Source: a virus | DNA length: 64,000 bases | Strand: one strand, 5' to 3' | Virus record (IMG/VR): IMGVR_UViG_3300032288_005212 | Coordinates: 1 to 64,000 of that record | Shown here: piece by piece, positions 8,817 to 40,186 of the stretch | Numbering within the stretch: position 1 is the stretch's first letter | How the letters are laid out: each line of letters opens with the position of its first letter | Notes under the pieces: model-generated | What the model saw: only the letters and a program-made list of their open reading frames with translations | The model's database searches: none | Told to the model about the DNA's origin: nothing | Made by a program: the position numbers and the translations under genes

Positions 8817-11800
8817 TATCTTCTACCTCTAAATAATAATCCGCCAGGTCTCTGCTGGTTAAATATTTCTTGTTTTACTGCATTTGAGATTGCAGTTCCA
8901 AGTCTTCTTGAGTATTCTTCTGTGTTATCTTTTGATGACGTATTTGTTGTAGCACTTCCAGATCCATCAACTGCAACGTTAATAGCAATATTATTTGTAT
9001 TTCCGCCACCATTACTCATTGTTACAGGAATTGTGCGACCATCTGGAAGAGGTACATACGCCTCTGGGCGTGATCCTTCTCCGAACATTGCAAGTTGTGG
9101 AGTTCTTGCTATTCCTCCACGAGCATATTTTTCGAGAGGCATTGGACCAGAGGAAGACATTACGCCACCTTTTTCAAAGCTAGAGCCTACGGTTCCACCT
9201 ATTTGGCTACCAATCATTGCCCCAGCAGGGCCTCCAACTGCACCACCTATGGCTCCACCTATGGCTCCTAATACTCCGCCTAAAAGCGCTTTCTTAGGAC
9301 TAGCACCTGCAGCAAGTGCGGCAGCCATTTGTGCAAATCCTGCCGCAGCTATAGTGCCTACATTTTCTGTGGCATAAGTTTGAGCATCCCCCCAAAAACT
9401 AGTTTCTTTTACTGTATTAGCAGTATTAATACTTGTTTTATCTAAAGTATCATAAGTCATTCCACCTAACTGATAGTTTTTCTGATCCCATTTTTGTGAT
9501 TCTTTAAAATAATCTATAGTTTTTGGATCACCAGTAGGTGTAGGATTAAAACCTGCTGTATAAACTCCTTGCTCATTAATACCGCTCTTAAAACCATTCA
9601 GTGTTGGGACTAAACCGCCCGCTACTGGCATAGATGTTACAGAACCTCCGCAGCAATTTGCTGTATTATTAGCAATCTCCTGCAATAAGTCAGTATGACT
9701 TTTAGCTGTTTCAGTAATAGCCTTTGTAGTAGCTTTGGTAGCTTCAATTGCTTTATCTTGTGGGGTTTTGAATACCTCAGCTATTCCGCCCATTCCAGAG
9801 GCGGTAAATAATCCAGCTATCCCTTCTTTTAATTTATTTTTTGCAGCTTCTGCAAGTCCTTCTCTTAAACTATCGCGTACTGCAGAACCAATAGCCTTAA
9901 AAGCATTCTTTCCTTCTACTATTGCATCTACGAAGGAGTCTACAGCACTATTAACAGCATTAGAGAAAATATCAGCAAGTTCTTGAGTAATCGATTTTGC
10001 ATCTTGTAGGGTTTTTAAGAAATTTTGTCCAATCGCAGTAGAAATATCCTGCCAAGAAGTCGTCATTTTTTGCGTCCAGCCAAATACAGCTTGTTGTGCT
10101 TGTATTTGCGCTGCAGTTATTTCTGATACTGCAGCTTCTGTTTCCGAACGAGTTGCGGCTGCGGCCGCTTGAGCTGCTTGCGGTAAAAGTACGGCGGCCT
10201 CTGCAAATACTCCAGGTAATGTATCTATTAATGTTTGTATATTACCTAGCTCAGCGGGATCTGTTGTTTGATTTTTTAAAGTTTGAAGTTGGCTTTTTAA
10301 TGTAATTTCTTGTATTTTTAATTGAGCGCCCATTAATTTATATTCAAGATCTATAATTCTTAGTTTCATTTCTTCTTCTTCACGAAGCAGCGCTTTTTTC
10401 TTTTCGCCAAACTCCATTTCTAGTTGAAGAGTCTGTTGAGCTGTTAATTCATACTCACCAATACCTTTATTACGAAGATTTATAGCTTTTAATTCGTTTT
10501 CTCTAATAGTTCTTTCGTTGTCTAGTATAGTAGACTTTGAAGAATTAATTTTTTCCTGAATATTTCCGGTTACATTAGCAAGGTCAATTTGGCGCTGAAT
10601 CAAATCGGCTGAAACCTGAGCAGTGGCTTCAGTATTAGCCTTATCAAGTACAGCGACTTTTAATTTATCATCAGTTATAGCCTTTTCTCTATCTAAGTTT
10701 GCTTGTGTTCTTTGTTGTACAGCAATTTGAGAGTAGTTTAAACCTTGAAGTGCTGTATAAGCATCTTTCAATGCTACAAGATTCTGTTGTGTTTCCGTAT
10801 CTTGTGGAGTAGCTGCAGATTGTTTTTGAAGATCCTTAATATCTTTAGCAAGTTCAGCCCTTAAAATGGCTAACTTAGCATTATTAAGTTTTTCTTCCAT
10901 ATTGATTGTACGAAGTTTTAGCCCATACTCTCTATTTATATTAGCTGTTTTTTGATTTTCAAATTTGCGAAAAACTTCCAATTGCTGGCGAGCAGAGAGA
11001 GCCGCCTCACCGCCTTGTTGAATATTTTGTAGTTGTAAGGAAGTTTCTTCTATACTTATCCGAGACTCAAGTATTGATTTTGAAAGATCAAGTTGTTTTT
11101 GTAGTATTGAAACAATTTCCTGCTCACCGCTCATTCTTCTTTCTAAATTAGTATAAGCTCTTTTAGCGTTTTCGATTTCCGTGCTAGCTGAAAAATTGGC
11201 TTGTTCTGTTATAAGTATACCACGTCTTGAAGCCAATTCTATTAATTTAGTTTCAGCAGCTCGTCTATCTGCGGTTTCATCTGATACTAATTTTTGTTGT
11301 TGATTTATCTCATCAGTAATATATGAAATTTCATCTGTATATATCTTATCTTGCAGCTTTTGCCTTGAATCAAAACTAGCTTTAGTTTCAAAATTAGAAA
11401 GCTTTATTAATGAATTTATATACTCTAAACTCTGTTTTTCTCTATTTAATATCTGAAGCTTTATATCCATGGCTTCTTTTATAGCAGTTTCTTGTTCTAA
11501 TCTTTTTTCTGCTTCTTCTGATAATTTTTCTGCTCTTCCAGAAGCTTTTTGTGCAATTCTCTCAATTATCTCTAATATTTTAAGTCTATCTTTTTCACCC
11601 GTTATTTGCTCTAGACCTAAACCTTGAACTTCTAGGCCTACTGATTTTAAAGCATCTTCAATTTTTTTAACGTCTTGATAAGTAAAATTTACGCGAAAGT
11701 CTACTGATTTTATTTCAGCTACCGCTCTACTAAAGGATTCGGCCCCCTTTGTCGCAGAATCTAACTCTGCTTTAGCTACATCTAAACCTAAAAATTTTGC

Positions 11801-28784: not shown

Positions 28785-28914
28785 GATAAAATTTTTGGAA
28801 GGGTTAATTTAGATTATTAAGCGCCTTTCGAGTTGAAAAAATCCCAAAGTTGCGCGTGAAGGTGTGCGCCCGGCTGTGTGAATATTACCAGTCTCGGAAC
28901 CGCCCCTCCCCACC

Positions 28915-28931
28915 TGGCACGCCCCTTGCAT
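28915..28931 (+). promoter_or_regulatory. sigma-54 type promoter (-24/-12), perfect match
   Basis: TGGCACG-CCCC-TTGCAT. The invariant GG (28916-28917) and GC (28928-28929) are 10 bp apart, as RpoN requires. It lies in the divergent gap before the first plus-strand gene. Activator sites are not identified. Confidence 0.65.
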
Positions 28932-29979: not shown

Positions 29980-29996
29980 TGGCACGCTTATTGCAT
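29980..29996 (+). promoter_or_regulatory. sigma-54 type promoter, perfect match
   Basis: TGGCACG-CTTA-TTGCAT with GG (29981-29982) and GC (29993-29994) 10 bp apart. The predicted start, about 12 nt on, falls in the CCTAGG of composite element 1. Confidence 0.65.
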
Positions 29997-30003
29997 CAGT
30001 TGA

Positions 30004-30031
30004 CCTAGGGCCAAGATGCGAATCATTCTCA
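30004..30031 (+). promoter_or_regulatory. composite element copy 1: CCTAGG-N7-TGCGAATCATTCTCA
   Basis: CCTAGG 30004-30009; 15-mer 30017-30031 matching the 7-1-7 Fur-box pattern (TGATAAT-N-ATTATCA) at most positions. See finding for the seven-copy comparison. Confidence 0.7.
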
Positions 30032-30107
30032 TTTAGGCCTGGTCCGCGCCGATTTTACCACACTAAAATATGCGCTGTCAATACCTCAAGAATGTGAACA
30101 AATACCA

Positions 30108-30136
30108 TTGCAATTCGAGTCTTCCTCTGTCATACT
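30108..30136 (+). promoter_or_regulatory. sigma-70 promoter
   Basis: TTGCAA (30108-30113), 17 nt, CATACT (30131-30136). Flanks resemble the promoter at 29335, including AATACCA just upstream. Confidence 0.65.
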
Positions 30137-30161
30137 GATCCCACCAGATAGAGGAAAACAT

Positions 30162-30350
30162 ATGTCACACGTAGCCTTTGAACTTCGCAACGAACGCAGC
30201 AACATAGACTGGGCCGTATATATCGACGGCAAACACTGGAAAACCTTTCCGGGCGATCGCCACCTTGCAGAATACAAGGTCAAGGAAATGTGCAAGCGGA
30301 AGACCGCCGAGACTGGCCGTCGTTGGGATGTGGTCGCTGTCCACTGGTAA
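30162..30350 (+). CDS. 62-residue protein, unknown
   Basis: ATG 30162 behind GAGGAAAA. A mixed alpha/beta, charged protein ('DWAVYIDGKHWKTFPGD...WDVVAVHW'). Its stop codon lies inside the palindrome at 30346-30357, so coding and control DNA overlap. Function unknown. Confidence 0.65.
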   Translation: MSHVAFELRNERSNIDWAVYIDGKHWKTFPGDRHLAEYKVKEMCKRKTAETGRRWDVVAVHW

Positions 30351-30357
30351 TATTACC
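30346..30357 (+). promoter_or_regulatory. 12-bp palindrome GGTAATATTACC abutting -35
   Basis: Perfect palindrome, 2 nt before TTGACG at 30360, overlapping the stop codon of the preceding gene. Confidence 0.65.
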
Positions 30358-30359
30358 GC

Positions 30360-30388
30360 TTGACGGCGAGCGATTGATCCGCCATACT
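30360..30388 (+). promoter_or_regulatory. sigma-70 promoter
   Basis: TTGACG, 17 nt, CATACT (30383-30388). Drives the 79-residue gene and those after it. Confidence 0.7.
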
Positions 30389-30415
30389 GTGCCCATGTTC
30401 AACGGAGATCAGACA

Positions 30416-30655
30416 ATGCAAAACGAAATCCGCGCTGCACAATTCCAAGCCGCACAAGCCAGCTTGGCCGCCTTTGACTGCTACCGCACTGCGAAGCGTG
30501 AGATCATCAAGGGAGATCGCCAGATCGGCCAGCTCTGGAGCCGGTGGGGCGATATGCTGATGGCGATCAACGCGAAGGCGAACGATGACATTCGTTTTCT
30601 GGAATGGGCGCAAAGCATGGAAGAAGCCTACGTTGACGGGTACTATGGGGAGTGA
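30416..30655 (+). CDS. 79-residue helical protein, unknown
   Basis: ATG 30416 with GGAGAT upstream. Ala-rich helical N-terminus then 'KGDRQIGQLWSRWGDMLMAINAKANDDIRFLEWAQSM'. Unknown function; first of three closely spaced genes. Confidence 0.65.
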   Translation: MQNEIRAAQFQAAQASLAAFDCYRTAKREIIKGDRQIGQLWSRWGDMLMAINAKANDDIRFLEWAQSMEEAYVDGYYGE

Positions 30656-30657
30656 TT

Positions 30658-30849
30658 ATGAGAATCGGAAAACTGCCGAACCGCGGCATAGTTGACAAAC
30701 TACTAGTAATAGTTCAAGGCCTGGCAACAGTGGCGGATGGCCTAATCATGATCGGCAGCTTCGGATTCTATGGTTCGATGATGTCGATGGATATTTCACG
30801 GTATCGTGCATGGCGCATGATTCAGAGAGGCAGAAAAAATGCAGTGTGA
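30658..30849 (+). CDS. 63-residue protein with one membrane-like segment
   Basis: ATG 30658, two bases after the previous stop, GGGGAGTG upstream. Hydrophobic segment about residues 18-42, basic ends. It overlaps the next start by 11 bp. Unknown. Confidence 0.6.
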   Translation: MRIGKLPNRGIVDKLLVIVQGLATVADGLIMIGSFGFYGSMMSMDISRYRAWRMIQRGRKNAV

Positions 30850-31036
30850 ACACCAGTTCAAACCCGGAAAGATTGTAATCGGCACGCCAACAAATGGTAG
30901 CAGTTACAATCCGAAAATGTGGGGCCGTGGCGAAGGCATCTGGCTCGATGGTCGAAAGGCCAGGCTAGTTCCATGCGAAAAGTGTGCCAAGTGTGGTAAG
31001 ACTCTTGTAGACCATAATTTGTACTACGGCTGGTAA
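30839..31036 (+). CDS. small zinc-ribbon-like protein
   Basis: 65 residues: 'CEHQF' at the start and 'PCEKCAKCGKTLVDHNLYYGW' at the end provide CxxH and CxxCxxC pairs. Probably a zinc-stabilised small regulator or adaptor. It ends just before the sigma-54 site at 31040. Confidence 0.6.
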   Translation: MQCEHQFKPGKIVIGTPTNGSSYNPKMWGRGEGIWLDGRKARLVPCEKCAKCGKTLVDHNLYYGW

Positions 31037-31039
31037 ATC

Positions 31040-31056
31040 TGGCACGCGTCTTGCAG
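31040..31056 (+). promoter_or_regulatory. sigma-54 type promoter, perfect match
   Basis: TGGCACG-CGTC-TTGCAG, GG (31041-31042) and GC (31053-31054) 10 bp apart. CCTAGG of composite copy 2 begins 12 nt after the GC, within 1 nt of the same phase as at 29980. Confidence 0.65.
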
Positions 31057-31064
31057 GGCGAGGC

Positions 31065-31092
31065 CCTAGGTAGTTGTTGCGAATTATTCTCA
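31065..31092 (+). promoter_or_regulatory. composite element copy 2
   Basis: CCTAGG 31065-31070, 7 nt, TGCGAATTATTCTCA 31078-31092. Confidence 0.7.
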
Positions 31093-31122
31093 TTTAGCGC
31101 GCTTGACAAAAAGGCGCGCTTC

Positions 31123-31150
31123 GCGCCAACGCGTGCAAAATCAAGAGTAA
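31123..31150 (+). repeat. intergenic repeat B copy 1 (GCGCCA...GTGCAAAATCAA)
   Basis: GCGCCA, 4 nt, then GTGCAAAATCAAGAGTAA. Shared with 32115, 33944 and three copies near 37.0 kb. Confidence 0.6.
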
Positions 31151-31178
31151 ATTTTATGTACTAAGTCACAAATAATTC

Positions 31179-31208
31179 TTGACTCCTGGGATTGTCAGTC
31201 TGTATAAT
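31179..31208 (+). promoter_or_regulatory. sigma-70 promoter
   Basis: TTGACT (31179-31184), 18 nt, TATAAT (31203-31208), in the ATTCTTGACT context also seen in the minus-strand promoters. Confidence 0.75.
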
Positions 31209-31236
31209 GGCGACTTCAGCAATGGAGATCGAAACG

Positions 31237-31461
31237 ATGCATCACTACACTGAAACTCTGGAATCTGGCAACTGGCTCATCGAACTCAGCCCGACCACTG
31301 AATACGGGTATTTTGAGAATCAAAAAACCGGCAGCGGTGGCGGCCTTTGGTTTGAAGGAAACGAGCTGGTAGACTATGATGGTGTTCTGTCGCTGCCAGT
31401 AGCAGTTGCAAGCGCGCTCACTGGCGCTGGATATGTACTCGGAGAGGAGTTTTTTGCGTGA
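31237..31461 (+). CDS. 74-residue protein, unknown
   Basis: ATG 31237 chosen because GGAGAT is 7 nt upstream and earlier starts lie too near the -10. Beta-rich ('TESGNWLIEL...GLWFEGNELVDYDG'). It overlaps the next (GTG) start by 4 bp. Unknown. Confidence 0.62.
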   Translation: MHHYTETLESGNWLIELSPTTEYGYFENQKTGSGGGLWFEGNELVDYDGVLSLPVAVASALTGAGYVLGEEFFA

Positions 31462-31859
31462 AACTGGTTATCAGTAAAAAGTTCCCGAGAGCCGTTCGGA
31501 GAATAATCCGAGCGGCTATCGCTGCAAGTAATGCACACGCTCCGATGAACGTGAGAACTCTTATTGTAAAACCTACAAAAGGTCACGATTATCACGGACT
31601 AGCGAAAGAAAACGAAGGTGTGGCGATTATTGAAATCTGCCATACTGAGCCCGATTATCTCGATACTGTATTTCATGAATGCTACCATATTTATCAATAC
31701 TCGCAGGGTATTGTAAAATCAGAATATAATGGATTTAAATGGCGCGGTGTTTATATTCCGCTGTTTCTTTACAATATGTTTCATTCGTTTGTGCCTTTTG
31801 AAATATCAGCAAAGGCATATGCTAAGAAAATGTGCAAAAAGGTGGAGGCATTGCAATGA
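31458..31859 (+). CDS. zinc metallopeptidase-like protein (HExxH)
   Basis: 133 residues, GTG start at 31458 (GGAGAGGAG upstream). His73-Glu74-x2-His77 in 'VFHECYHIYQY' is a zincin motif. A downstream 'FEISAKAYAKK' offers the third ligand in the usual place for small SprT/Wss-like folds. Substrate unknown; a host-directed protease or an anti-defence role are both speculative. A second, related enzyme lies at 36234. Confidence 0.7.
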   Translation: MKLVISKKFPRAVRRIIRAAIAASNAHAPMNVRTLIVKPTKGHDYHGLAKENEGVAIIEICHTEPDYLDTVFHECYHIYQYSQGIVKSEYNGFKWRGVYIPLFLYNMFHSFVPFEISAKAYAKKMCKKVEALQ

Positions 31860-32065
31860 TTCGAATTACTGCAGCATATGGGCGCAATTACTATTCCGCT
31901 GAAATTGTGCGTCAAGATTGGGAAAGCGATAAAGACTTTCGAATGATTGACGGCGGCGGATATATTAATCGCTCCGATTGGCTAAAATATAATAAAGGGT
32001 TGGATAGCATTGTGTTTTCTAATGGTGTGGTATTAATGCACCTTGAGCATGGTGTACTTCCATGA
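31856..32065 (+). CDS. 69-residue protein, unknown
   Basis: ATG 31856 overlapping the previous stop, GGTGGAGG upstream. Tyr/Asp-rich beta protein. Unknown function. Confidence 0.6.
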   Translation: MIRITAAYGRNYYSAEIVRQDWESDKDFRMIDGGGYINRSDWLKYNKGLDSIVFSNGVVLMHLEHGVLP

Positions 32066-32073
32066 TGGAGGTA

Positions 32074-32101
32074 CCTAGGTGCCAAATGAGAATAATTCTC
32101 A
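32074..32101 (+). promoter_or_regulatory. composite element copy 3, most symmetric
   Basis: CCTAGG 32074-32079, 7 nt, TGAGAATAATTCTCA 32087-32101. With its flanks (32084-32104) the 15-mer is a perfect 10-1-10 inverted repeat. Confidence 0.72.
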
Positions 32102-32114
32102 TTTGGCTGTCACT

Positions 32115-32144
32115 GCGCCAAATAGCGTGCAAAATCAAGAGTAA
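32115..32144 (+). repeat. intergenic repeat B copy 2
   Basis: GCGCCA, 6 nt, GTGCAAAATCAAGAGTAA; just upstream of the promoter at 32155. Confidence 0.6.
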
Positions 32145-32154
32145 AAATTCACAC

Positions 32155-32182
32155 TTGAACCTGGGCGGTGAGATGCTATACT
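32155..32182 (+). promoter_or_regulatory. sigma-70 promoter
   Basis: TTGAAC (32155-32160), 16 nt, TATACT (32177-32182), before the 78-residue gene. Confidence 0.65.
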
Positions 32183-32210
32183 GCTCAAGTCTAAACCGGA
32201 GAGCCAAACC

Positions 32211-32447
32211 ATGATGACTCGCTCGCAACACGCCGAACTCGCCGCAGAAGTCGCTGAGGCCGTAGTAAAGCCCACGCAAACCGTCGGGCAGGTGGCAGAG
32301 CATATTTTTAATGCGGCTGAAGTCATGCGGAACATTATGCTTGATTCCGCAAACATGACGCAGCAGGAACTGCACGGGCATATCCAGTTTGCAACCGAAT
32401 TGCAACGTGCATATGTACGTCGCGCAACTATGCTGGGGATACTCTGA
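32211..32447 (+). CDS. 78-residue helical protein, unknown
   Basis: Ala/Glu-rich, fully helical ('AELAAEVAEAVVKPTQTVGQ' then an amphipathic helix). Starts at ATGATG 32211 after GGAGAG. Its TGA overlaps the next ATG (TGATG). Unknown. Confidence 0.62.
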   Translation: MMTRSQHAELAAEVAEAVVKPTQTVGQVAEHIFNAAEVMRNIMLDSANMTQQELHGHIQFATELQRAYVRRATMLGIL

Positions 32448-32545
32448 TGCTGTATAATCTCGGCACACTGGTAATGCTTTTTACTGGCATACTAGTCTCG
32501 GGGTATGTTGCTATAAAAATGCTCGAACACTACTTTGGAGAGTAA
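32447..32545 (+). CDS. 32-residue membrane peptide
   Basis: ATG 32447 in a TGATG overlap. One membrane helix ('LGTLVMLFTGILVSGYVAI', residues about 5-23). It is followed 3 bp later by the next start. Small phage membrane peptides of this kind are often lysis or exclusion modulators, but no function can be read here. Confidence 0.5.
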   Translation: MLYNLGTLVMLFTGILVSGYVAIKMLEHYFGE

Positions 32546-32548
32546 AAC

Positions 32549-32998
32549 ATGAATTTTTCGATGACGATTGAGAATGCTACGGTTTCGACTGTCGTTCGGA
32601 ACGAATACGAAATTATTCGGCATATCGAAGCCTGCTTTCTCGCGGCTGGATATGACTCCGATACTTTTGCTGAGTATCTGGCACACTATCTGGAGCTTTA
32701 TCATGAGATGACGGTACTTCCGGAAAAAGAGTACACGCAGGCGCTCGCCGAAGCTCGGGAGGAAGCCTATGATGAAGGTTTCGATGATGCTACTGCCGAA
32801 AAAAAGGAAGAGGCAGAATATGCCTGCAATTGCCCGATGTGCAAAGATCCCGTCGCCTATGATGCGGGCTGGAATGATGGATTCCAAGGCGAAGAAAATC
32901 TCGACGAAGATATGGCAAAAATTCCCGCCTATATGGTAGGATACGAGAATGGAAAGATCGACCGAGAAAAAGGCCGCTACAATGGCGAAGCAATCTGA
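32549..32998 (+). CDS. 149-residue acidic protein, unknown
   Basis: Start ATG 32549 (GGAGAG upstream). Acidic; 'CNCPMCKD' (about 92-99) gives a small Cys cluster, and two repeated motifs 'YDEGFDDA', 'YDAGWNDGFQGE' and 'VGYENGKID' suggest short helical repeats. Unknown function. Confidence 0.65.
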   Translation: MNFSMTIENATVSTVVRNEYEIIRHIEACFLAAGYDSDTFAEYLAHYLELYHEMTVLPEKEYTQALAEAREEAYDEGFDDATAEKKEEAEYACNCPMCKDPVAYDAGWNDGFQGEENLDEDMAKIPAYMVGYENGKIDREKGRYNGEAI

Positions 32999-33009
32999 GG
33001 AGTAATGAT

Positions 33010-33213
33010 ATGATCATCACGCGTATGTCGATTTTCTCTGGCAAGATTCACTCTTGGGATATTCCGGTAACGGAAGAGCAGATCGATCGCTGGCAGCGCG
33101 GTTGTCTGATTCAGAATGCGATGCCGCACTTGACTGCGGATCAGCGAGAGTTTATTATGACGGGCACCACTCCTGATGAGTGGAATCAAATGTTTGGGGA
33201 GGATGCAGCCTAA
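33010..33213 (+). CDS. 67-residue conserved phage protein
   Basis: The pattern 'WDIPVTEEQIDRWQRGCLIQNAMPHLTADQREFI', then a 'TPDEWNQMFG' end, is shared by many unrelated phages (recall). Start ATG 33010 with GGAGTAATG-type spacing. TAATG overlap with the next gene. Function unknown. Confidence 0.7.
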   Translation: MIITRMSIFSGKIHSWDIPVTEEQIDRWQRGCLIQNAMPHLTADQREFIMTGTTPDEWNQMFGEDAA

Positions 33214-33437
33214 TGCACGCTTTTCAAATGAACTACGGTACAGTGGATATGGGAATGAATAAATATACACGGGCCGCGATTGCTTTGGGCGCTACCGTCG
33301 AGGACGGTATAAACTGGACGTGGGCAAATCATTTTGCCACGCGAGAGCTGGCTCAGGAATTTATCAATATGTTTCCTGAGATGGAAACACGCGGCATCTA
33401 TACTGATAGCCCGGGCTTTTCTGTGAGGTTTCGATGA
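33213..33437 (+). CDS. 74-residue protein, unknown
   Basis: ATG 33213 overlaps the previous TAA; it ends in an ATGA overlap with the next gene. Mixed alpha/beta, aromatic-rich. Unknown. Confidence 0.6.
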   Translation: MHAFQMNYGTVDMGMNKYTRAAIALGATVEDGINWTWANHFATRELAQEFINMFPEMETRGIYTDSPGFSVRFR

Positions 33438-33535
33438 AAAATCCTGTAGCAAAGTTTAGCCGCCAGGTCAACCGATCGGCGGTTCAGCGGGATCGTAAAA
33501 AAGCCGCAAAGCGCGGATATAGGAAACACAAATGA
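33434..33535 (+). CDS. 33-residue basic protein
   Basis: 'MKNPVAKFSRQVNRSAVQRD' then Lys/Arg-rich to the end. This short basic family is common in phages (I recall it as DUF7230, unverified). ATGA overlaps on both sides fix its frame. Possibly ribosome- or nucleic-acid-binding. Confidence 0.68.
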   Translation: MKNPVAKFSRQVNRSAVQRDRKKAAKRGYRKHK

Positions 33536-33867
33536 GAAACACAAAAAACTATCTTGCACTCGGGCACGATATTGAAGAAAACTTTTTCTTTATAAAGATT
33601 GGGTTATCTGATGACCCCGAAGAACGTGTATCTAAACTCAGAATGAAACTGCTACACGTTTGGGAAAACATATGGATATCTGATGGCGACTACTCTTGCA
33701 CAGTAGAAGCTTTTTTCTTAAAAACTATGGGTTACTCTCATTATACTTATAGTAACCATAAATTTTCAGGGTCATCCGATTGCATTGGAAGATTTAAAAC
33801 AAAAGAAGAAGCTTTATTCATTGGCAGGCAAATGGTAAAGTTTATTTTATCCCTTCAATATGACTAG
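33532..33867 (+). CDS. GIY-YIG/T5orf172-like protein
   Basis: 111 residues. 'FFFIKIGLSDDPEERVSKLR' near 18-37 and 'VEAFFLKTMGY' near 62-72 resemble the core of T5orf172/GIY-YIG-type domains, but the paired Tyr motif is not clear, so catalytic activity is uncertain. Lower GC than its neighbours, suggesting separate acquisition. Last gene before composite copies 4 and 5. Confidence 0.5.
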   Translation: MRNTKNYLALGHDIEENFFFIKIGLSDDPEERVSKLRMKLLHVWENIWISDGDYSCTVEAFFLKTMGYSHYTYSNHKFSGSSDCIGRFKTKEEALFIGRQMVKFILSLQYD

Positions 33868-33877
33868 GGCAGAAGGC

Positions 33878-33909
33878 CCGATGCGACCCATTCGCATCGG
33901 CGACCTAGG
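33878..33909 (+). promoter_or_regulatory. 9-bp hairpin followed by 12-bp palindrome around CCTAGG
   Basis: Arms 33878-33886 and 33892-33900 pair over 5 nt. Directly after it, CGACCTAGGTCG is a perfect palindrome holding the CCTAGG of composite copy 4. No T tract, so not a standard terminator. Confidence 0.5.
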
Positions 33910-33931
33910 TCGTTGTTGAGAATCATTCTTA
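33904..33931 (+). promoter_or_regulatory. composite element copy 4
   Basis: CCTAGG 33904-33909, 7 nt, TGAGAATCATTCTTA 33917-33931. Confidence 0.68.
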
Positions 33932-33943
33932 TTTCCGCGCGGA

Positions 33944-33970
33944 GCGCCAATTATAGCGTGCAAAATCAAC
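33944..33970 (+). repeat. intergenic repeat B copy 3
   Basis: GCGCCA, 8 nt, GTGCAAAATCAA, between composite copies 4 and 5. Confidence 0.55.
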
Positions 33971-34012
33971 GGCGTCAAGTGTAAATGTGTGTAATATTGC
34001 ACAAACTCCAAA

Positions 34013-34040
34013 TGAGTCTGGTTCTCATCTCGCACCTAGG
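34013..34040 (-). promoter_or_regulatory. composite element copy 5, inverted
   Basis: Degenerate 15-mer TGAGTCTGGTTCTCA 34013-34027, 7 nt, CCTAGG 34035-34040: same gap as the others but in opposite orientation. The 295-nt gap around it (33868-34162) holds no gene. Confidence 0.55.
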
Positions 34041-34267
34041 GCGCGCCCCTGGCGCTTGTCAATAGGAAATATTTCACATTCCTGGGGGTGGATCTGCGGG
34101 CGGGGAGGCCTCATAATAGCGGCTTCTGGTGAGGGTTCACCGGAAACCGAAAGGGGAAGTCAATGGCAATATTCACACAAATTCGGAATGCGCTGCGGTC
34201 ATTCTTTCGGGTACAATGTGAAACATCGGTGGGGCAGTGTGCTTCACCCAAATCGGAGAGTAAAACT

Positions 34268-34579
34268 ATGTCGCTCTACACTGAGTCGATGGTGTCGGAA
34301 CTGATGGCTCGCGCGAGCTGGTCGTATGATGACGCGGTTGCGTTCGCTGAGAAGCATTCCAGCGTGTCGGTACGTTCGGTTATCAGCAAAATCAAGTCTC
34401 TGAAGCTGGACTACACCGCGAAGCCGAAAGCTGCGACGGCGAAGACTGACAAGGTGCGGAAGTCGGAGATCGTGGGCGAGATCGCACTCGCGCTCGGTAT
34501 TCAGGCTGACGCAATCTCGGGCCTTGCCAAGGCTGACGCCGCTTGCCTTCGCGTTCTTCTGGCGAAGGTTGCGGGCTAA
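34268..34579 (+). CDS. small HTH-like DNA-binding protein (paralogue 1)
   Basis: 103 residues from ATG 34268 (GGAGAG upstream); an in-frame ATG at 34163 (GGGGAAG upstream) would add 35 residues. Residues about 1-45 ('SMVSELMARASWSYDDAVAFAEKHSSVSVRSVISKIKSL') form a three-helix HTH-like unit with the recognition helix in 'SVRSVISKIKSL'. The C-terminus ('KSEIVGEIALALGIQADAISGLAKADA') repeats in the genes at 37226 and 37734. I infer a sequence-specific regulator. Target unknown. Confidence 0.65.
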   Translation: MSLYTESMVSELMARASWSYDDAVAFAEKHSSVSVRSVISKIKSLKLDYTAKPKAATAKTDKVRKSEIVGEIALALGIQADAISGLAKADAACLRVLLAKVAG

Positions 34580-34779
34580 TGGTTCGGGTCGCTGCCATCT
34601 TGGGAACCGGGGCAATGTGCATTGCCCCCTTTTTCATCGACACGCTTCCTGGCAAATTGTGTGCCATATGCGGCCTGTTACTTTTGACAATACAGGCACT
34701 TGATCTGCGCGCTTACAATCTGGTACTCTTAAATCTGGTCGGCATTGCTGGCTACACTTTTTCAAGCATGGGAGCCTAG
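34579..34779 (+). CDS. small membrane protein, conserved phage type
   Basis: 66 residues, TAATG overlap with the previous gene. Two hydrophobic segments (about 2-18 and 23-42) plus a third weak one; pattern 'ILGTGAMCIAPFFIDTLPGK' recurs in phages (recall). Unknown role, perhaps envelope remodelling. Confidence 0.62.
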   Translation: MVRVAAILGTGAMCIAPFFIDTLPGKLCAICGLLLLTIQALDLRAYNLVLLNLVGIAGYTFSSMGA

Positions 34780-34782
34780 AAT

Positions 34783-35259
34783 ATGTACCGCTCGATTTTT
34801 GATCTCGATGGGACTGTAATCGATTCCACACACCGCCACGCTACGCTGCCTGATGGGTCGCTTGATCTGGCACATTGGATTGAAAATTCCACGCCTGAGA
34901 AAATCGCTGCGGACTCTTTGCTGCCGCTTGCCGATTATATGCGGATGTTCTTCCCGCATCACGAGGTGCTGGTATGCACTGCCCGCGTGATGGGGGAAGC
35001 CGATTACGAATTTTTGTTCGATAACGGATTGCAGGCTGATGCGATTCTTTCGCGCCCTGCTGGCAACCGTCTGCCGGATGGGTTCCTTAAGGAAATGCTG
35101 CTGCGCGATCATGCAACACGCCGCGGCCTTACTTGGGTGGAATTTGTAAAAAATACCACGATCTTCGATGACAACGCTTCTGTGCTTGACACGCTCGGAC
35201 GGGTTGGAATTCGGACGATCTGCGCCCGCACTCTTAACCGGGTGCTGGCGGAGGACTGA
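34783..35259 (+). CDS. HAD-family phosphatase-like protein
   Basis: 158 residues. Motif I Asp7-x-Asp9 in 'FDLDGTVID', motif II Thr in 'LVCTARV', and motif III/IV 'TTIFDDNASVL' are intact. Polynucleotide 3'-phosphatase or nucleotidase activity is possible; specificity cannot be read. It sits between the membrane gene (3 bp) and composite copy 6. Confidence 0.75.
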   Translation: MYRSIFDLDGTVIDSTHRHATLPDGSLDLAHWIENSTPEKIAADSLLPLADYMRMFFPHHEVLVCTARVMGEADYEFLFDNGLQADAILSRPAGNRLPDGFLKEMLLRDHATRRGLTWVEFVKNTTIFDDNASVLDTLGRVGIRTICARTLNRVLAED

Positions 35260-35273
35260 CACCGACCAGGTGC

Positions 35274-35307
35274 TGCGAATGGTTCTCATTCGCATTGCCG
35301 CCCTAGG
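35274..35307 (-). promoter_or_regulatory. composite element copy 6, inverted and stretched
   Basis: TGCGAATGGTTCTCA 35274-35288, 13 nt (not 7), CCTAGG 35302-35307, followed by GTCGCCGACC. Confidence 0.5.
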
Positions 35308-35330
35308 TCGCCGACCTGGGCGTGTCAATA

Positions 35331-35342
35331 GGAAATAATACC
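35331..35342 (+). promoter_or_regulatory. promoter palindrome variant (GGAAATAATACC)
   Basis: Ends 2 nt before the -35 at 35345, as in the other copies. Confidence 0.55.
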
Positions 35343-35344
35343 GC

Positions 35345-35372
35345 TTAACTGGGATGTGCATCATGGTATACT
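35345..35372 (+). promoter_or_regulatory. sigma-70 promoter for exonuclease gene
   Basis: TTAACT, 16 nt, TATACT (35367-35372). Confidence 0.6.
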
Positions 35373-35405
35373 CCACGTCCCAACTACTGCTCGGGAGAGC
35401 ATTTC

Positions 35406-36125
35406 ATGGCTAAAAAGCAATTCTATCTGATCATCGATACCGAAACGACAATCGATGAAAAAGTCGCAGATTTCGGTGCCGTTATCGTTGATCGGAAAGG
35501 CCGCATTGCTGCCCAATGTGGAATTCTCATTAATGGCATTTACAATGATCGGGAAAACCATCCGCTCTTTTATAATGAATACTCGGGCGACCTTTGGAAA
35601 AAGTCGAGCCTTGATAAGCGATATAATAACTATTCGGCAATGCTCGCCAACGGTTCCCGTATGCTCGCATCAATTCCTGCGATTAATACTTGGCTCGCAA
35701 AAGCGGCAAACAAGTTTAATCCCACACTGACCGCATATAATCTGGCATTCGATCTCGGTAAATGCGTCAATACTGGAATTGATCTTTCCTATTTCGAGAA
35801 TCGGTTTTGCCTTTGGCACGCTGCATTTAATAAATGGGCGCATACTAAAAACTATCGCAATTTCGCTCTACAAATGCACGCTTTTAATGCTCCGACTAAA
35901 TTGCAAAATATGTCGTTTAAAACGAATGCGGAAACAATGGCACGTTTTATTACTAATTCGCCCGATATGCCTGATGAACCGCATACCGCACTCGAAGACG
36001 CAATCTATTATGAATTGCCAATTCTGAAACGATTAATCGAAACGACAGAGCGTAATGTATTTATGAATCCCGAGCCTTTTGACTGGCGCAAGGTTCAGGT
36101 CAAAGATTGGTTTACCGCTAAATAG
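35406..36125 (+). CDS. DnaQ/RNase T-like 3'-5' exonuclease
   Basis: 239 residues with DEDD-type motifs: Asp11-x-Glu13 in 'IIDTETT', 'LTAYNLAFDLGKC' (ExoII) and 'PHTALEDAIYYELPIL' (ExoIII, H..ED type). A stand-alone proofreading-like or RNA-trimming exonuclease. No polymerase domain is attached. It is the largest gene of the plus-strand block and has its own promoter. Confidence 0.82.
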   Translation: MAKKQFYLIIDTETTIDEKVADFGAVIVDRKGRIAAQCGILINGIYNDRENHPLFYNEYSGDLWKKSSLDKRYNNYSAMLANGSRMLASIPAINTWLAKAANKFNPTLTAYNLAFDLGKCVNTGIDLSYFENRFCLWHAAFNKWAHTKNYRNFALQMHAFNAPTKLQNMSFKTNAETMARFITNSPDMPDEPHTALEDAIYYELPILKRLIETTERNVFMNPEPFDWRKVQVKDWFTAK

Positions 36126-36132
36126 GTGACAT

Positions 36133-36237
36133 ATGACAGAATTGGAAACTTTGAAAATGCGAATGGAAATTATTCGGACGGTTTGTCCGATTCTTTCCCT
36201 CATCCTTCAATTGATAATTCTGGGGCGTTTGATATGA
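36133..36237 (+). CDS. 34-residue membrane peptide
   Basis: ATG 36133 behind AGGTGA, 7 nt after the exonuclease stop. A charged N-terminus then one hydrophobic helix ('TVCPILSLILQLIILGRLI', residues about 16-34). ATGA overlap with the metallopeptidase gene sets both frames. Unknown function. Confidence 0.55.
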   Translation: MTELETLKMRMEIIRTVCPILSLILQLIILGRLI

Positions 36238-36644
36238 AAATATCTAAATCCTTTCGCAATTCGCAACGCAAAATAATCGAGGCGGCTGTTAAAAATAGCC
36301 GCCTTGATTTGAATCTGCCCGATCTGCGCGATATTAAAGTAAAATCGAATAAATCAAAATCGCTCGACGGTTGGGCTGATGTTTCAAATGGGTATGCGGT
36401 AATTTCAATTAATCGCCGATTAAAAGGCGCGGAATTGTTTTGCTGCGTTGCACATGAAATGGTACACGTTAGCCAATTACTATCCGGCCGCCTTGTAACT
36501 GCCGCTCCGAATCTTTTTATCTGGAATGGAAAGGTTACGCGATTAACGGAGGAAAAAATGGCTAAAATGAATCCCGCAAAATATCGGGCATTGCCTTGGG
36601 AGCGGGAAGCATATTATTATGGCGATTCTTTTTTGGGAGATTAA
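36234..36644 (+). CDS. zinc metallopeptidase-like protein (HExxH), second copy
   Basis: 136 residues from ATG 36234 (coupled); a longer frame from GTG 36126 is less likely because it erases the 34-residue gene with its good ribosome site. His74-Glu75-x2-His78 in 'CVAHEMVHVSQLL' and 'WEREAYYYGD' as probable third-ligand segment. Same overall layout as the protein at 31458, so the two are related enzymes. Substrate unknown. Confidence 0.7.
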   Translation: MKISKSFRNSQRKIIEAAVKNSRLDLNLPDLRDIKVKSNKSKSLDGWADVSNGYAVISINRRLKGAELFCCVAHEMVHVSQLLSGRLVTAAPNLFIWNGKVTRLTEEKMAKMNPAKYRALPWEREAYYYGDSFLGD

Positions 36645-36647
36645 AAC

Positions 36648-36794
36648 ATGGGACCGTGGCTTGTTTTGTTTGTCGGTTTGATTTATTTAATTATTGCGGC
36701 GGATTTTGCCTTTCGGAATAATAACTGGTGGATGGCATCCGTTTATTTTGGATATGCGTTTGCCAATGTGGGGCTTTTTCAAATAGGGAAATAA
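36648..36794 (+). CDS. 48-residue membrane protein, conserved phage type
   Basis: ATG 36648 after GGGAGA. 'MGPWLVLFVGLIYLIIAADF' plus a second hydrophobic segment; homologous-looking proteins are common in phages (recall). Its stop lies in the palindrome at 36787. Confidence 0.62.
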   Translation: MGPWLVLFVGLIYLIIAADFAFRNNNWWMASVYFGYAFANVGLFQIGK

Positions 36795-36798
36795 TACC
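36787..36798 (+). promoter_or_regulatory. promoter palindrome variant with TTGACG 2 nt on
   Basis: GGAAATAATACC, 2 nt, TTGACG (36801-36806). The -10 position is occupied by the CCTAGG of composite copy 7 rather than a good TATAAT, so this may be a promoter occluded or replaced by the element. Confidence 0.45.
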
Positions 36799-36822
36799 GC
36801 TTGACGCCAGGAGGGCGCGGGC

Positions 36823-36850
36823 CCTAGGTAGATGATGCGAATCATTCTCA
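36823..36850 (+). promoter_or_regulatory. composite element copy 7
   Basis: CCTAGG 36823-36828, 7 nt, TGCGAATCATTCTCA 36836-36850; the 15-mer is identical to copy 1. Gap 36795-37225 has no gene: it holds this element, three repeat B copies and a promoter. Confidence 0.7.
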
Positions 36851-36915
36851 TCTCGCTCCTAGCTTGCGCCTAGCAAGAACCATGCCAACATTTGTGGGAA
36901 TAATGCCAGCGCTTC

Positions 36916-36947
36916 GCGCCAGCCAGAGTGGGAAATCAATGTCAAGT
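36916..36947 (+). repeat. intergenic repeat B copy 4
   Basis: GCGCCA, 6 nt, GTGGGAAATCAATGTCAAGT. First of three spaced 81 and 73 bp apart. Confidence 0.6.
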
Positions 36948-36992
36948 TGCGTACGTGCAATTTTATTGGGAATTTTTCACATACTTGTCTCC

Positions 36993-37028
36993 GCGCCAGC
37001 GTACCACAGTGCGAAATCAATGTCAAGT
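36993..37028 (+). repeat. intergenic repeat B copy 5
   Basis: GCGCCA, 10 nt, GTGCGAAATCAATGTCAAGT. Confidence 0.6.
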
Positions 37029-37067
37029 AAGAAAGACAAAGAACATATGTGAATTTTTCTCAGGTCT

Positions 37068-37104
37068 GCGCCATTATACGAGTGCGAAATCAATAATGTC
37101 AAGT
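37068..37104 (+). repeat. intergenic repeat B copy 6
   Basis: GCGCCA, 8 nt, GTGCGAAATCAA, then an extra TAA before TGTCAAGT. Confidence 0.6.
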
Positions 37105-37148
37105 AATTTCCACACAGAATAAATGTGAATATTACAGCAGTCTTCCGC

Positions 37149-37177
37149 TTGCGTTTTCTCCTGCCAGCCTTCATAAT
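37149..37177 (+). promoter_or_regulatory. sigma-70 promoter
   Basis: TTGCGT, 17 nt, CATAAT (37172-37177), before HTH paralogue 2. Confidence 0.6.
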
Positions 37178-37225
37178 ACTCTTGTTGTTGAGGCAGTCCC
37201 TAGTTCAAATTCAATGGAGAAATAT

Positions 37226-37522
37226 ATGAGTGCTTATTCTAATTCGATGGTCACCGAGCTCTGCGCCTCCGCGCACACTTATGAAAGCGCAGCAGCTTTT
37301 GCTAGCAAGCACAATCTGTCGACGCGCAGTGTTGTGAGCAAGATCAAGTCGCTTGGCCTGGACTATAGGAAAAAAGAAGTAGTTTCTGTTAGCCAGACGC
37401 GGATTCGGAAGGCTGACGTGGTTGCAGAGATTGCCGCCCGGCTTTCGCTTGACAGCGAAAAGTTGGCGGGGCTGGGGAAAGCGGACGCTGCTAGTTTGCA
37501 GCAGCTTTTGAAAGCTATTTAA
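37226..37522 (+). CDS. small HTH-like DNA-binding protein (paralogue 2)
   Basis: 98 residues; ATG 37226 preferred over 37214 because GGAGA lies about 5 nt upstream. 'SNSMVTELCASAHTYESAAAFASKHNLSTRSVVSKIKSLGLDY' matches paralogue 1 closely, and 'RKADVVAEIAARLSLDSEKLAGLGKADA' matches its C-terminus. Own promoter and terminator, so a single-gene unit, as expected for a regulator. Confidence 0.68.
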   Translation: MSAYSNSMVTELCASAHTYESAAAFASKHNLSTRSVVSKIKSLGLDYRKKEVVSVSQTRIRKADVVAEIAARLSLDSEKLAGLGKADAASLQQLLKAI

Positions 37523-37733: not shown

Positions 37734-38033
37734 ATGTATACAGAAGATGAAGTAACTATTCTACAGCAATATCCGAGTCTTTCCGTGGAAGAACTGGCAG
37801 CTCAGCTGGGACGCAGTGAGAGATCAATTATTGGAAAGCTGAGTCGCCTGGGAATTTATCAGCGAAAAACCTATGTGAGCAAAACTGGTTCACCACCCAT
37901 TAGCAAACTGGAAATTGTGGCTGAGATAGAGTCTGCATTGCAGATGAAGCTTGAAGGGCTAGAAAAGAGTCCAAAAGGTGTATTGCTTTCTTTGCGAGAT
38001 AAACTGAGCGGCGGGGCATTTCCAAATTGCTAG
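37734..38033 (+). CDS. small HTH-like DNA-binding protein (paralogue 3)
   Basis: 99 residues, ATG 37734 with GGAGGG upstream. 'DEVTILQQYPSLSVEELAAQLGRSERSIIGKLSRLGIY' is an HTH with recognition helix 'SERSIIGKLSRL'. The C-terminal 'SKLEIVAEIESALQMKLEGLEKSPKG' parallels the other two paralogues. Last gene of the plus-strand block, followed by a strong terminator. Confidence 0.72.
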   Translation: MYTEDEVTILQQYPSLSVEELAAQLGRSERSIIGKLSRLGIYQRKTYVSKTGSPPISKLEIVAEIESALQMKLEGLEKSPKGVLLSLRDKLSGGAFPNC

Positions 38034-39709: not shown

Positions 39710-40186
39710 GAAGATGAAATCTTCCGAGGATGCGAGGGGGGAACAGCCTAAGTGTGGTCTTACGTTCGCCCCCCTCGCTGGGGAAAAGGGGAGAGGTTTC
39801 TAACGAACCACCTCTCTAAAACGTGTTGCCTAGGACTGTAATGGAATACACTAGGACTGTCCATCAGAAGAAATTAGATAACCCATCTTCTTTCTTCCTA
39901 CGGCCTCGAGGGCGCTGCTTTTTTGATACGGAAAGTTGTAAACCGGCGTTTTTTCAAAACTGCAAAAATAAGACAGTTCACGCAATGTCAATTCGGCGTT
40001 TATACAAAACTGCAAAAGGAACAAGGGATTTCTGTTCAATTGTATCTCCGTCGAGATAGCACCCTGGTATGAGTTAAAATATAAGGCGAATATCCGGTTT
40101 AATATTCATTAATCTTTTATCTCTTAACTGGAAGAGGCCCTAACAACCTTTTTAACTCAATTCGAACTCCCTTTCTCTCACAACAT
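39710..40186 (-). ncRNA. candidate structured non-coding transcript and possible origin region
   Basis: About 480 nt between the promoter at 40193-40221 and the terminator at 39684-39709 with no credible gene (a TTG-started 62-codon frame lacks a ribosome site). Contents: a near-perfect 13-bp hairpin with one bulge (39732-39744/39774-39788); a 7-bp hairpin around 39791-39816; CTAGGACTGT twice (39830, 39851); and two 24-nt repeats with 2 mismatches, 50 bp apart (39944-39967, 39994-40017). Either a structured RNA or an iteron-bearing control region. Confidence 0.5.
39944..40017. repeat. pair of 24-nt direct repeats, 50-bp period
   Basis: Units 39944-39967 and 39994-40017 begin CGGCGTTT and end CAAAACTGCAAAA; only two bases differ. 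Iteron-like. Confidence 0.65.

Follow-up and report, generated by a model that had tools for sequence, protein, structure and literature searches.

In bacteriophage T5, which enters the cell via the ferrichrome receptor FhuA, DNA entry stops after about 8% of the genome, and the mechanism of this arrest is a decades-old question. The T5 stop signal consists of repeats, palindromes and DnaA boxes, and its mechanism is described as poorly understood (2026 paper, PMC13250531). The injection-stop region of T5 (iss; left terminal repeat, AY543070 9140-10149) is a non-coding stretch at the terminal-repeat end of the pre-early DNA, and it contains an array of Fur-like boxes at 9554, 9589, 9612, 9658 and 9693. 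Proteobacterial Fur boxes are described either as a 7-1-7 palindrome, TGATAATNATTATCA, or as overlapping 6-6-1-6 arrays. The literature that we searched contains no report linking Fur to T5-like phages.

Here we report an array of seven composite DNA elements in a T5-like phage, located in a window of 64,000 nucleotides that comprises positions 1 to 64,000 of the 106,084-bp virus record IMGVR_UViG_3300032288_005212. Each element joins the palindromic site CCTAGG to a 15-mer at a distance of exactly 7 nt. Comparison with bacterial and phage genomes supports the identification of the 15-mer as a predicted Fur box, and we propose, with moderate confidence, that host Fur occupies these boxes as the DNA enters, restrains the pre-early promoters and possibly contributes to the transfer pause.

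Genomic context of the elements

The block at 28.9-38.3 kb is the pre-early DNA of a T5-like phage, the part transferred in the first step, and it is probably a terminal repeat. It encodes a homologue of the T5 deoxynucleoside-5'-monophosphatase Dmp (Table 1), a search for which matched 900 phage records, mostly from hosts of T5-like phages. The block adjoins the terminase/portal side of the genome (terminase at 22.7-24.0 kb), and the same phage encodes a T5-like polymerase as well as a D5 homologue at 71.3 kb. It is present once in the record, and many related contigs end within it. Among its small DNA-binding proteins, the one at 37214 is a remote member of phrog_1725, the family to which T5 A2 itself belongs (E 4e-52); its paralogue at 34268 has no direct family match of its own. 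In contrast to T5, the phage has no recognisable A1 (no tblastn match in the 106-kb record at E 0.01), and its A2-like proteins are only remotely related. The exonuclease at 35406, used as a query, retrieved no relatives from the viral scan or the phage collection; homologues are nonetheless encoded by the relatives L013, L018, L023 and L159. A nucleotide search of the block against phages returned a single 78-bp match, and Rfam detected tRNAs only.

Table 1. Genes, promoters and composite elements of the pre-early block (window coordinates)
Feature	Position	Strand	Evidence or remark
Sigma54 promoter TGGCACGCCCCTTGCA, perfect	28915..28930	+	-24/-12 pattern; near presumed genome terminus, without composite element
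Sigma54 promoter TGGCACGCTTATTGCA, perfect	29980..29995	+	-24/-12 pattern
Element 1: CCTAGG-N7-TGCGAATCATTCTCA	30004..30031	+	pattern match
Sigma54 promoter TGGCACGCGTCTTGCA, perfect	31040..31055	+	-24/-12 pattern
Element 2: CCTAGG-N7-TGCGAATTATTCTCA	31065..31092	+	pattern match
Element 3: CCTAGG-N7-TGAGAATAATTCTCA	32074..32101	+	within 27-bp perfect palindrome 32081-32107
Element 4: weak 15-mer-N7-CCTAGG (33904)-N7-TGAGAATCATTCTTA	33882..33931	+	35-bp repeat, CCTAGG central
Element 5: inverted, 7-nt gap, far half degenerate	34013..34040	-	
Small DNA-binding protein, paralogue of 37214-37522	34268..34579	+	50% identical to the 37214 protein
T5 Dmp homologue	34783..35259	+	tblastn to T5 left terminal repeat, E 4e-15; pre-early marker
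Element 6: inverted, two overlapping 15-mers (35274, 13-nt gap; 35280, 7-nt gap)	35274..35307	-	6-bp shift; compare Fur 6-6-1-6 array
Non-coding stretch: element 7 and three GTGCRAAATCAA-type repeats	36645..37213		synteny with L159 and L018
Element 7: CCTAGG-N7-TGCGAATCATTCTCA-N7-CCTAGC	36823..36863	+	in 570-bp non-coding, injection-stop-like stretch
A2-like small DNA-binding protein, remote	37214..37522	+	phrog_1725, E 1.7e-4
D5/GcrA-like HTH protein	37734..38033	+	phrog_323 (D5-like), E 5e-8; Pfam GcrA, E 7e-6

Structure and spacing of the composite elements

Each of the seven CCTAGG sites within 30004-36850 is separated from a 15-mer by exactly 7 nt. The pattern CCTAGG-N7-TGNGAATNATTCTCA, with up to 3 mismatches, matches the window 8 times, whereas shuffles predict 0.02 matches, and the reversed control pattern has 0. 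The first-pass annotation had suggested scanning the whole genome and relatives for the composite; across the 106,084-bp record we found no match outside the window. CCTAGG occurs eight times in the whole record, seven of them within elements and the remaining one at 39829, and the 15-mer (at most 1 mismatch) occupies 8 positions in the 9.45-kb block versus 0 in the remaining ~97 kb (shuffle mean 0.03).

Distances from an exact CCTAGG to a 15-mer (at most 3 mismatches, within 40 nt) were 7 nt in eight cases, 13 nt in one and 23 nt in one. This count bears out the 7-nt gap initially described for the CCTAGG-N7-15mer copies, including the inverted one at 34013. The same annotation had assigned the seven elements to seven intergenic gaps; the elements do number seven, but they lie in six gaps, because those at 33904 and 34013 share one. 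The element at 35274 is indeed inverted, but it is no 13-nt exception, since an overlapping weak copy at 35280-35294, in a register shifted by 6 bp, keeps the exact 7-nt distance. Two 15-mers flank the CCTAGG at 33904, each 7 nt away (a weak one at 33882 and one at 33917), and the 15-mer at 36836 likewise lies between CCTAGG and CCTAGC, each at 7 nt, which makes the lattice symmetric, with a period of 35 bp. The earlier proposal of two side-by-side sites at a fixed spacing is supported.

An ungapped alignment of the seven elements and one close relative has the invariant core CCTAGG-N7-TG(A/C)GAA, and the elements at 34013 and 35274 have degenerate far half-sites. The relative in question is L240, the closest one (84% DNA identity at the element region); a relaxed pattern detected the composite in this phage, whereas the exact CCTAGG-N7-15mer has 0 matches in other viral contigs. 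In L240 CCTAGG and the near half-site are kept, but the far half-site has changed from ATTCTCA to ATTCCTG; this decay speaks against the complete Fur box being under strict selection at that site. CCTAGG-N7-TGMGAA could be one bipartite site of a single host or phage factor, with the resemblance to Fur secondary, as the invariant columns, mainly CCTAGG and TG.GAA, and the retention of CCTAGG in L240 would suggest; we consider this improbable, given that relatives and T5 have conserved, at corresponding positions, complete palindromes that lack CCTAGG.

Identification of the 15-mer as a predicted Fur box

At least 118 bacterial stretches contain the exact flanked 21-mer AAATGAGAATNATTCTCATTT, most of the copies lying between genes. 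Pfam analysis of 20 neighbouring genes identified four TonB-dependent receptors, as well as FeoB, a ferritin-like protein, ZnuA and an ECF sigma factor; about 8 of the 20 neighbours are metal-related as an uncontrolled raw count, and some sites adjoin genes unrelated to iron. The better phage copies have 2-3 mismatches to the 7-1-7 sequence, a proteobacterial consensus that may not be that of the host, while the relative L012 carries TGAGAATGATTATCA and the T5 dmp coding region an exact TGATAATCATTATCA. The half-site variants TGAGAAT, TGCGAAT and TGATAAT and the 6-bp overlapping registers are likewise as in Fur arrays. The occurrence of the exact 21-mer upstream of bacterial iron genes supports the original Fur-box assignment, and the 15-mer with its flanks is a well-supported predicted Fur-binding site. 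The phage boxes differ from proteobacterial ones in their location in pre-early gaps of a lytic-type phage, in the fixed second site, and in neighbouring genes that have no known iron function.

A search of the record with PF01475 gave 0 matches, and a phage-encoded Fur was rejected. The binders initially considered were host Fur, another host factor and a phage repressor; a binder encoded by one of the three HTH genes of the phage is conceivable, because the 37214 protein falls weakly in the A2 family, the 34268 protein is its paralogue and the third HTH protein resembles D5. One of the A2-like proteins or the D5/GcrA-like protein at 37734 could bind the palindrome and/or CCTAGG as an operator, regulating pre-early genes or releasing the injection stop, by analogy with A2 in T5. 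Both protein types occur in T5 as well as in the window phage, repeated operators are common for phage repressors, and constraint on the element is strongest in its CCTAGG-proximal half. We nevertheless regard such an operator array as unlikely: the flanked 15-mer cannot be told apart from the Fur boxes of iron genes in bacteria, homology to A2 is remote (and not direct for 34268), and the HTH types concerned do not have the Fur fold.

CCTAGG accompanies bacterial Fur boxes in one chance case among ~118 loci, and the site is nearly private to the window phage.

Promoters around the elements

TGGCACG-N4-TTGCW has three perfect matches, every one in the block, and none elsewhere in the 106 kb. 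The sigma54 promoter upstream of element 1 would start transcription at ~30006, within CCTAGG and with the box at +12, and that upstream of element 2 at ~31066, on CCTAGG. On the minus strand, sigma70 promoters have predicted starts at 30045 (element 1) and at 33943 (element 4; TTGACG-17-TATAAT), and a sigma54-like match lies beside element 7 at 36872-36887. The 32074 element has no strong promoter starting nearby. The first-pass annotation had noted neither the two sigma54 promoters (29980 and 31040) nor those for sigma70 on the minus strand, and it had missed that the block is pre-early DNA as in T5.

Predicted starts lie 8-15 bp from a box twice in the window and in L012, L013 and L240, against a chance background of 1.1% for box placement at +10 to +19. 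Perfect TGGCACGN4TTGCA promoters are also found in the pre-early regions of Vibrio, Aeromonas and uncultured T5-like phages; known sigma54 promoters, however, have neither CCTAGG at the start nor a Fur box at about +12. In the window the boxes are downstream of the sigma54 starts, whereas in several Vibrio and Aeromonas phages they precede the sigma54 promoters, so no single promoter geometry holds. CCTAGG might itself serve as a sigma70 -10 element, with TTGAC(A/G) located 15-16 nt upstream of three copies, but CTAGGT is a poor -10 and four copies lack such a -35.

Stable RNA folding at 32074 (z -4.1) and 35274 (z -3.4), and a 27-bp palindrome in L013 with TTTT after it on the minus strand, would fit a role as terminators or processing sites of leader or antisense RNAs. 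That the palindromes act in this way is highly improbable, as the TGC...TCA copies have a C-U mismatch in the stem and it is sequence, not pairing, that is conserved across phages. An RNA hairpin as the common function was rejected, five of the seven copies folding no better than shuffles.

Conservation across T5-like phages

The 15-mer (at most 1 mismatch) is present in 11 of 12 T5-like records, VF16 having none within 1 mismatch, and where terminal repeats are annotated all copies fall inside them; in five other phages the count is 0-2 per phage. The box is confined to pre-early or terminal-repeat DNA in T5-like phages of several hosts. The initial remark that no phage was known to have such an array needs correcting, as T5 and EPS7 carry Fur-like arrays in the injection-stop region. 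A box precedes the first HTH gene also in L012, L159, L195, L198 and L223, lies between Dmp and the exonuclease also in L013, and precedes the second HTH gene also in L018 and L159.

We take 36645-37213 as the positional counterpart of the T5 iss. Both lie on the same side of the terminase, share the Dmp gene as a marker and have repeats and palindromes at the inner end of the terminal repeat (a probable one in the window phage), with boxes followed by short repeats (GTGCRAATCCGACA in T5, GTGCRAAATCAA in the window phage). In contrast to T5, the boxes of the window phage are distributed over six gaps across 7 kb and paired with CCTAGG, and DnaA boxes (TTATCCACA), a feature of the T5 iss, are absent from the window.

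The same DNA of relatives carries perfect parS, LexA, DnaA or sigma54 sites. In L159 a perfect parS, TGTTNCACGTGNAACA, known from the ParB-parS systems of bacterial chromosomes, replaces CCTAGG, likewise 7 nt from the Fur box; in L018 the spacing is 9 nt, and no parS was found in the window phage. Such an assortment of perfect sites for several host regulators, confined to pre-early DNA that is present twice per genome where repeats are annotated, could also act as a decoy that titrates Fur (and LexA, DnaA or ParB in relatives), derepressing host iron uptake or disturbing chromosome control. This too seems improbable, since seven sites per single incoming genome are few relative to the Fur molecules generally present in a cell, and a decoy needs neither the fixed 7-nt pairing with CCTAGG nor placement at promoters.

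Proposed function and implications

We infer the function of the boxes as follows. The elements would be host Fur boxes in promoter-bearing pre-early gaps, each 7 nt from a second palindromic site. Once the first 8-10% of the genome is in the cell, Fe2+-Fur, as dimers or as longer arrays in 6-bp steps, would fill the boxes, and a second factor on CCTAGG would adjoin the box-bound Fur. At several sites the boxes lie at about +12 to +15 from predicted sigma54 or minus-strand sigma70 starts. Fur bound there would therefore obstruct early elongation, and pre-early or antisense transcription would be restrained according to the iron state of the host. The same occupancy in the injection-stop-like stretch may add to the DNA-transfer pause. 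A protein bound inside the cell does not alone explain halted DNA entry.

The region may serve as a hub for host chromosome-binding proteins, the set of which would vary by phage lineage: Fur, DnaA and LexA in enterobacterial phages, with sigma54 also in Vibrio and Aeromonas phages, Fur and ParB in some uncultured phages, and Fur with CCTAGG in the window phage. As a tentative generalization, which we put below even odds, the pre-early and injection-stop DNA of T5-like phages would be a landing pad of sites for abundant host proteins (Fur, DnaA, LexA, ParB, sigma54-RNA polymerase), on which host Fur and a lineage-specific partner at fixed spacing set the pause between first- and second-step transfer and couple it to the host iron state.

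Reading the palindromes as Fur boxes, together with the LexA, parS and sigma54 sites in the same DNA of relatives, puts names to specific host proteins and makes the T5 stop question testable by single-gene deletions in E. coli K-12. The Fur-like sites in the T5 iss provide a concrete candidate for a host protein acting on incoming phage DNA; if true, phage entry would be tied to the iron status of the host.

Composite elements and their spacing

The CCTAGG-N7-TGNGAATNATTCTCA array described in the first-pass annotation was found at its reported places in the window, with eight matches at up to three mismatches versus 0.02 expected from shuffles, and the 106,084-bp record holds none beyond these. 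The hexamer CCTAGG occurs eight times in the whole record, seven of them within composite elements, and the 15-mer (at most one mismatch) has eight positions in the 9.45-kb plus-strand block at ~28.9-38.3 kb and none in the remaining ~97 kb. Among exact CCTAGG/15-mer pairs no more than 40 nt apart, the gap is 7 nt in 8 of 10. The copy at 35274 had been taken for a spacing exception; however, a second, overlapping and weaker 15-mer at 35280 sits in the 7-nt register. The two are shifted by 6 bp, and the hexamer step of arrays bound by Fur, the host ferric uptake regulator, is likewise 6 bp.

CCTAGG at 33904 is flanked on both sides by a 15-mer, and the 15-mer at 36836 has CCTAGG on one side and CCTAGC on the other, each 7 nt away. 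These two-sided flanks make the layout symmetric, with a period of 35 bp. The seven elements themselves stand, but they occupy six intergenic gaps instead of the seven claimed, since those at 33904 and 34013 share one. When one close relative is aligned without gaps to all seven copies, CCTAGG and TG(A/C)GAA are invariant, and the far half of the 15-mer palindrome is looser.

The 15-mer as a candidate Fur box

We scanned bacteria, one genome per species, for AAATGAGAATNATTCTCATTT and found at least 118 stretches; among the first 80, the sites are mostly intergenic and directly ahead of an open frame. Four of 20 neighboring proteins tested are TonB-dependent receptors, and others include FeoB, a ferritin-like protein, ZnuA and an ECF sigma factor. 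By sequence, judged against bacteria at large, the 15-mer is a Fur box. Since the phage record contains no Fur gene of its own, host Fur is the natural candidate binder.

The block as a T5-like pre-early region

The DNA polymerase and portal share 43% and 38% identity, respectively, with those of T5-like phages, and by protein similarity the phage is T5-like. The block adjoins the terminase/portal side and has a raised G+C content (0.43-0.51 versus about 0.38-0.41 on both flanks). It encodes a homologue of Dmp (E 4e-15; 900 phage records match), which in T5 is the first gene of the left terminal repeat. The small helix-turn-helix (HTH) protein at 37214 weakly matches the T5 A2 family phrog_1725 (E 1.7e-4; T5 A2 itself, E 4e-52) and has a paralogue at 34268 (50% identity). 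The protein at 37734 resembles D5, and a D5 homologue lies at 71.3 kb. The whole record thus has Dmp, remote A2-like and D5 proteins but no detectable T5 A1 homologue. From the T5-like affiliation, the terminase side and the Dmp, A2-like and D5-like proteins, the block is assigned as the pre-early, first-step-transfer region. It is likely present twice per genome, as in T5, because many related contigs have an end within its counterpart. Elsewhere, the window carries a low-G+C run of sugar genes at 52.0-63.2 kb (sialyltransferase, UDP-glucose dehydrogenase, epimerase, glycosyltransferase-like).

Fur-like boxes in T5-like relatives

Related phage records (L numbers) were collected with HTH, Dmp and terminase proteins as queries. 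They have the box in gaps where the window phage also has it: ahead of the first HTH gene in L012, L159, L195, L198 and L223, ahead of the second in L018 and L159, and, as a 27-bp perfect palindrome, between Dmp and exonuclease in L013. Of 12 T5-like genome records, 11 contain 15-mers with at most one mismatch. In T5, PR1 and phi 3, whose terminal repeats are annotated, every such 15-mer is inside the repeats; in records lacking that annotation they are near dmp/A1/A2 or at record ends. In the comparison phages T4, N4, P1, lambda and KVP40 the count per genome is 0-2. On these comparisons, the Fur-like box is a trait of pre-early DNA in T5-like phages. At the compared site the closest relative, L240 (84% DNA identity), still has the sigma54 promoter, CCTAGG at its spacing and the near half-site, but not the far half of the 15-mer, so the full palindrome is not strictly kept there. 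CCTAGG is absent from the more distant relatives compared.

The motif TGAGAAYNAGTCTCATTACCGCCCCC occupies bases 20-34 of Vibrio phage VF16, near its genome end as predicted with PhageTerm, and a degenerate form occurs in the window near 28.88-28.92 kb. Where ends are known, the conserved motif TGAGAATGAGTCTCATTACCGCCCCC is accompanied by a Fur-like palindrome ~20-45 bp from the DNA terminus.

Positions of sequence features in the window and in related phage records
Feature	Window	Related records	Remarks
Repeats GTGCRAAATCAA	31133, 32127, 33958, 36928, 37009, 37082		Downstream of composite elements, three after the last
Strong sigma70 promoters against gene direction	30057-30081, 33955-33978, 37078-37102 (minus strand)	L012, L013	Several with GGCGC-type discriminator
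Promoter-upstream repeat GGTAATATTACCGCTTGACG, five copies	28968, 29905, 30346, 35331, 36787		Ahead of TTGACR-like -35 boxes
Perfect sigma54 promoters	28915, 29980, 31040	L013, L017, L018, L148-L153	
LexA-type and DnaA boxes		L024 6213 and 9411; L025 5640 and 9780; L145, L147-L153	Pre-early/terminal-repeat DNA
parS (ParB) sites		L015 11182, L016 11306 (one mismatch), L018 11327, L020 11778, L148 9799 and 11912, L159 2546, L195 362, L198 474	
Conserved genome-end motif TGAGAATGAGTCTCATTACCGCCCCC	28878-28915	L149 12690-12710; L014-L016, L020, L159, L165, L189	

Other host-protein sites in pre-early DNA

All three perfect sigma54 promoters of the record are in the block. T5-like phages of Vibrio, Aeromonas and uncultured hosts also have such promoters, concentrated in their pre-early regions, but T5 and EPS7 do not, and the position of the box relative to them varies between phage groups. 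Several Vibrio and Aeromonas phages have DnaA boxes close downstream of them. In named T5-like phages, LexA-type boxes CTGTATANNNATACAG are found only in pre-early/terminal-repeat DNA, and a control pattern had no matches. The parS sequence TGTTNCACGTGNAACA is present in eight records (one with a mismatch), always within pre-early DNA, versus zero for the control; the sites sometimes adjoin Fur boxes. In L159, parS and a Fur box are separated by exactly 7 nt within the gap ahead of the second HTH gene, and the syntenic gap of the window phage holds CCTAGG-N7-box; L018 has a spacing of 9 nt. The one exact example, L159, suggests that the Fur box is paired with a lineage-specific second site.

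Injection stop signal and proposed role

According to a recent paper (PMC13250531), how the second step of DNA transfer works is still poorly understood, and the stop signal is marked by repeats, inverted repeats, palindromes and DnaA boxes. Within the annotated T5 injection stop signal (9140-10149) we found a Fur-like array at 9554, 9589, 9612, 9658 and 9693, with 6-bp overlapping registers; similar arrays, often with 35-bp intervals, occur in EPS7 and in Klebsiella and Pectobacterium phages. The 36836 box is in a non-coding stretch ahead of the inner end of the block, and this stretch is the counterpart of the signal. The window repeats GTGCRAAATCAA resemble the T5 repeat GTGCRAATCCGACA (T5 9750-9975).

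The elements at 30004 and 31065 are downstream of a sigma54 promoter whose predicted start is inside CCTAGG, so that the box begins at +12 or +13. For strong sigma70 promoters on the minus strand, the predicted start lies 13-15 bp away from the box at 30017 and at 33917; in L012, L013 and L240 this distance is 8-15 bp. Those in the window, L012 and L013 possibly yield antisense RNAs. On the best reading, the boxes would be host-Fur operators of pre-early promoters, at which bound repressor would block early elongation from nearby promoters, and the box in the stretch resembling the injection stop signal may have a share in the DNA-transfer pause.
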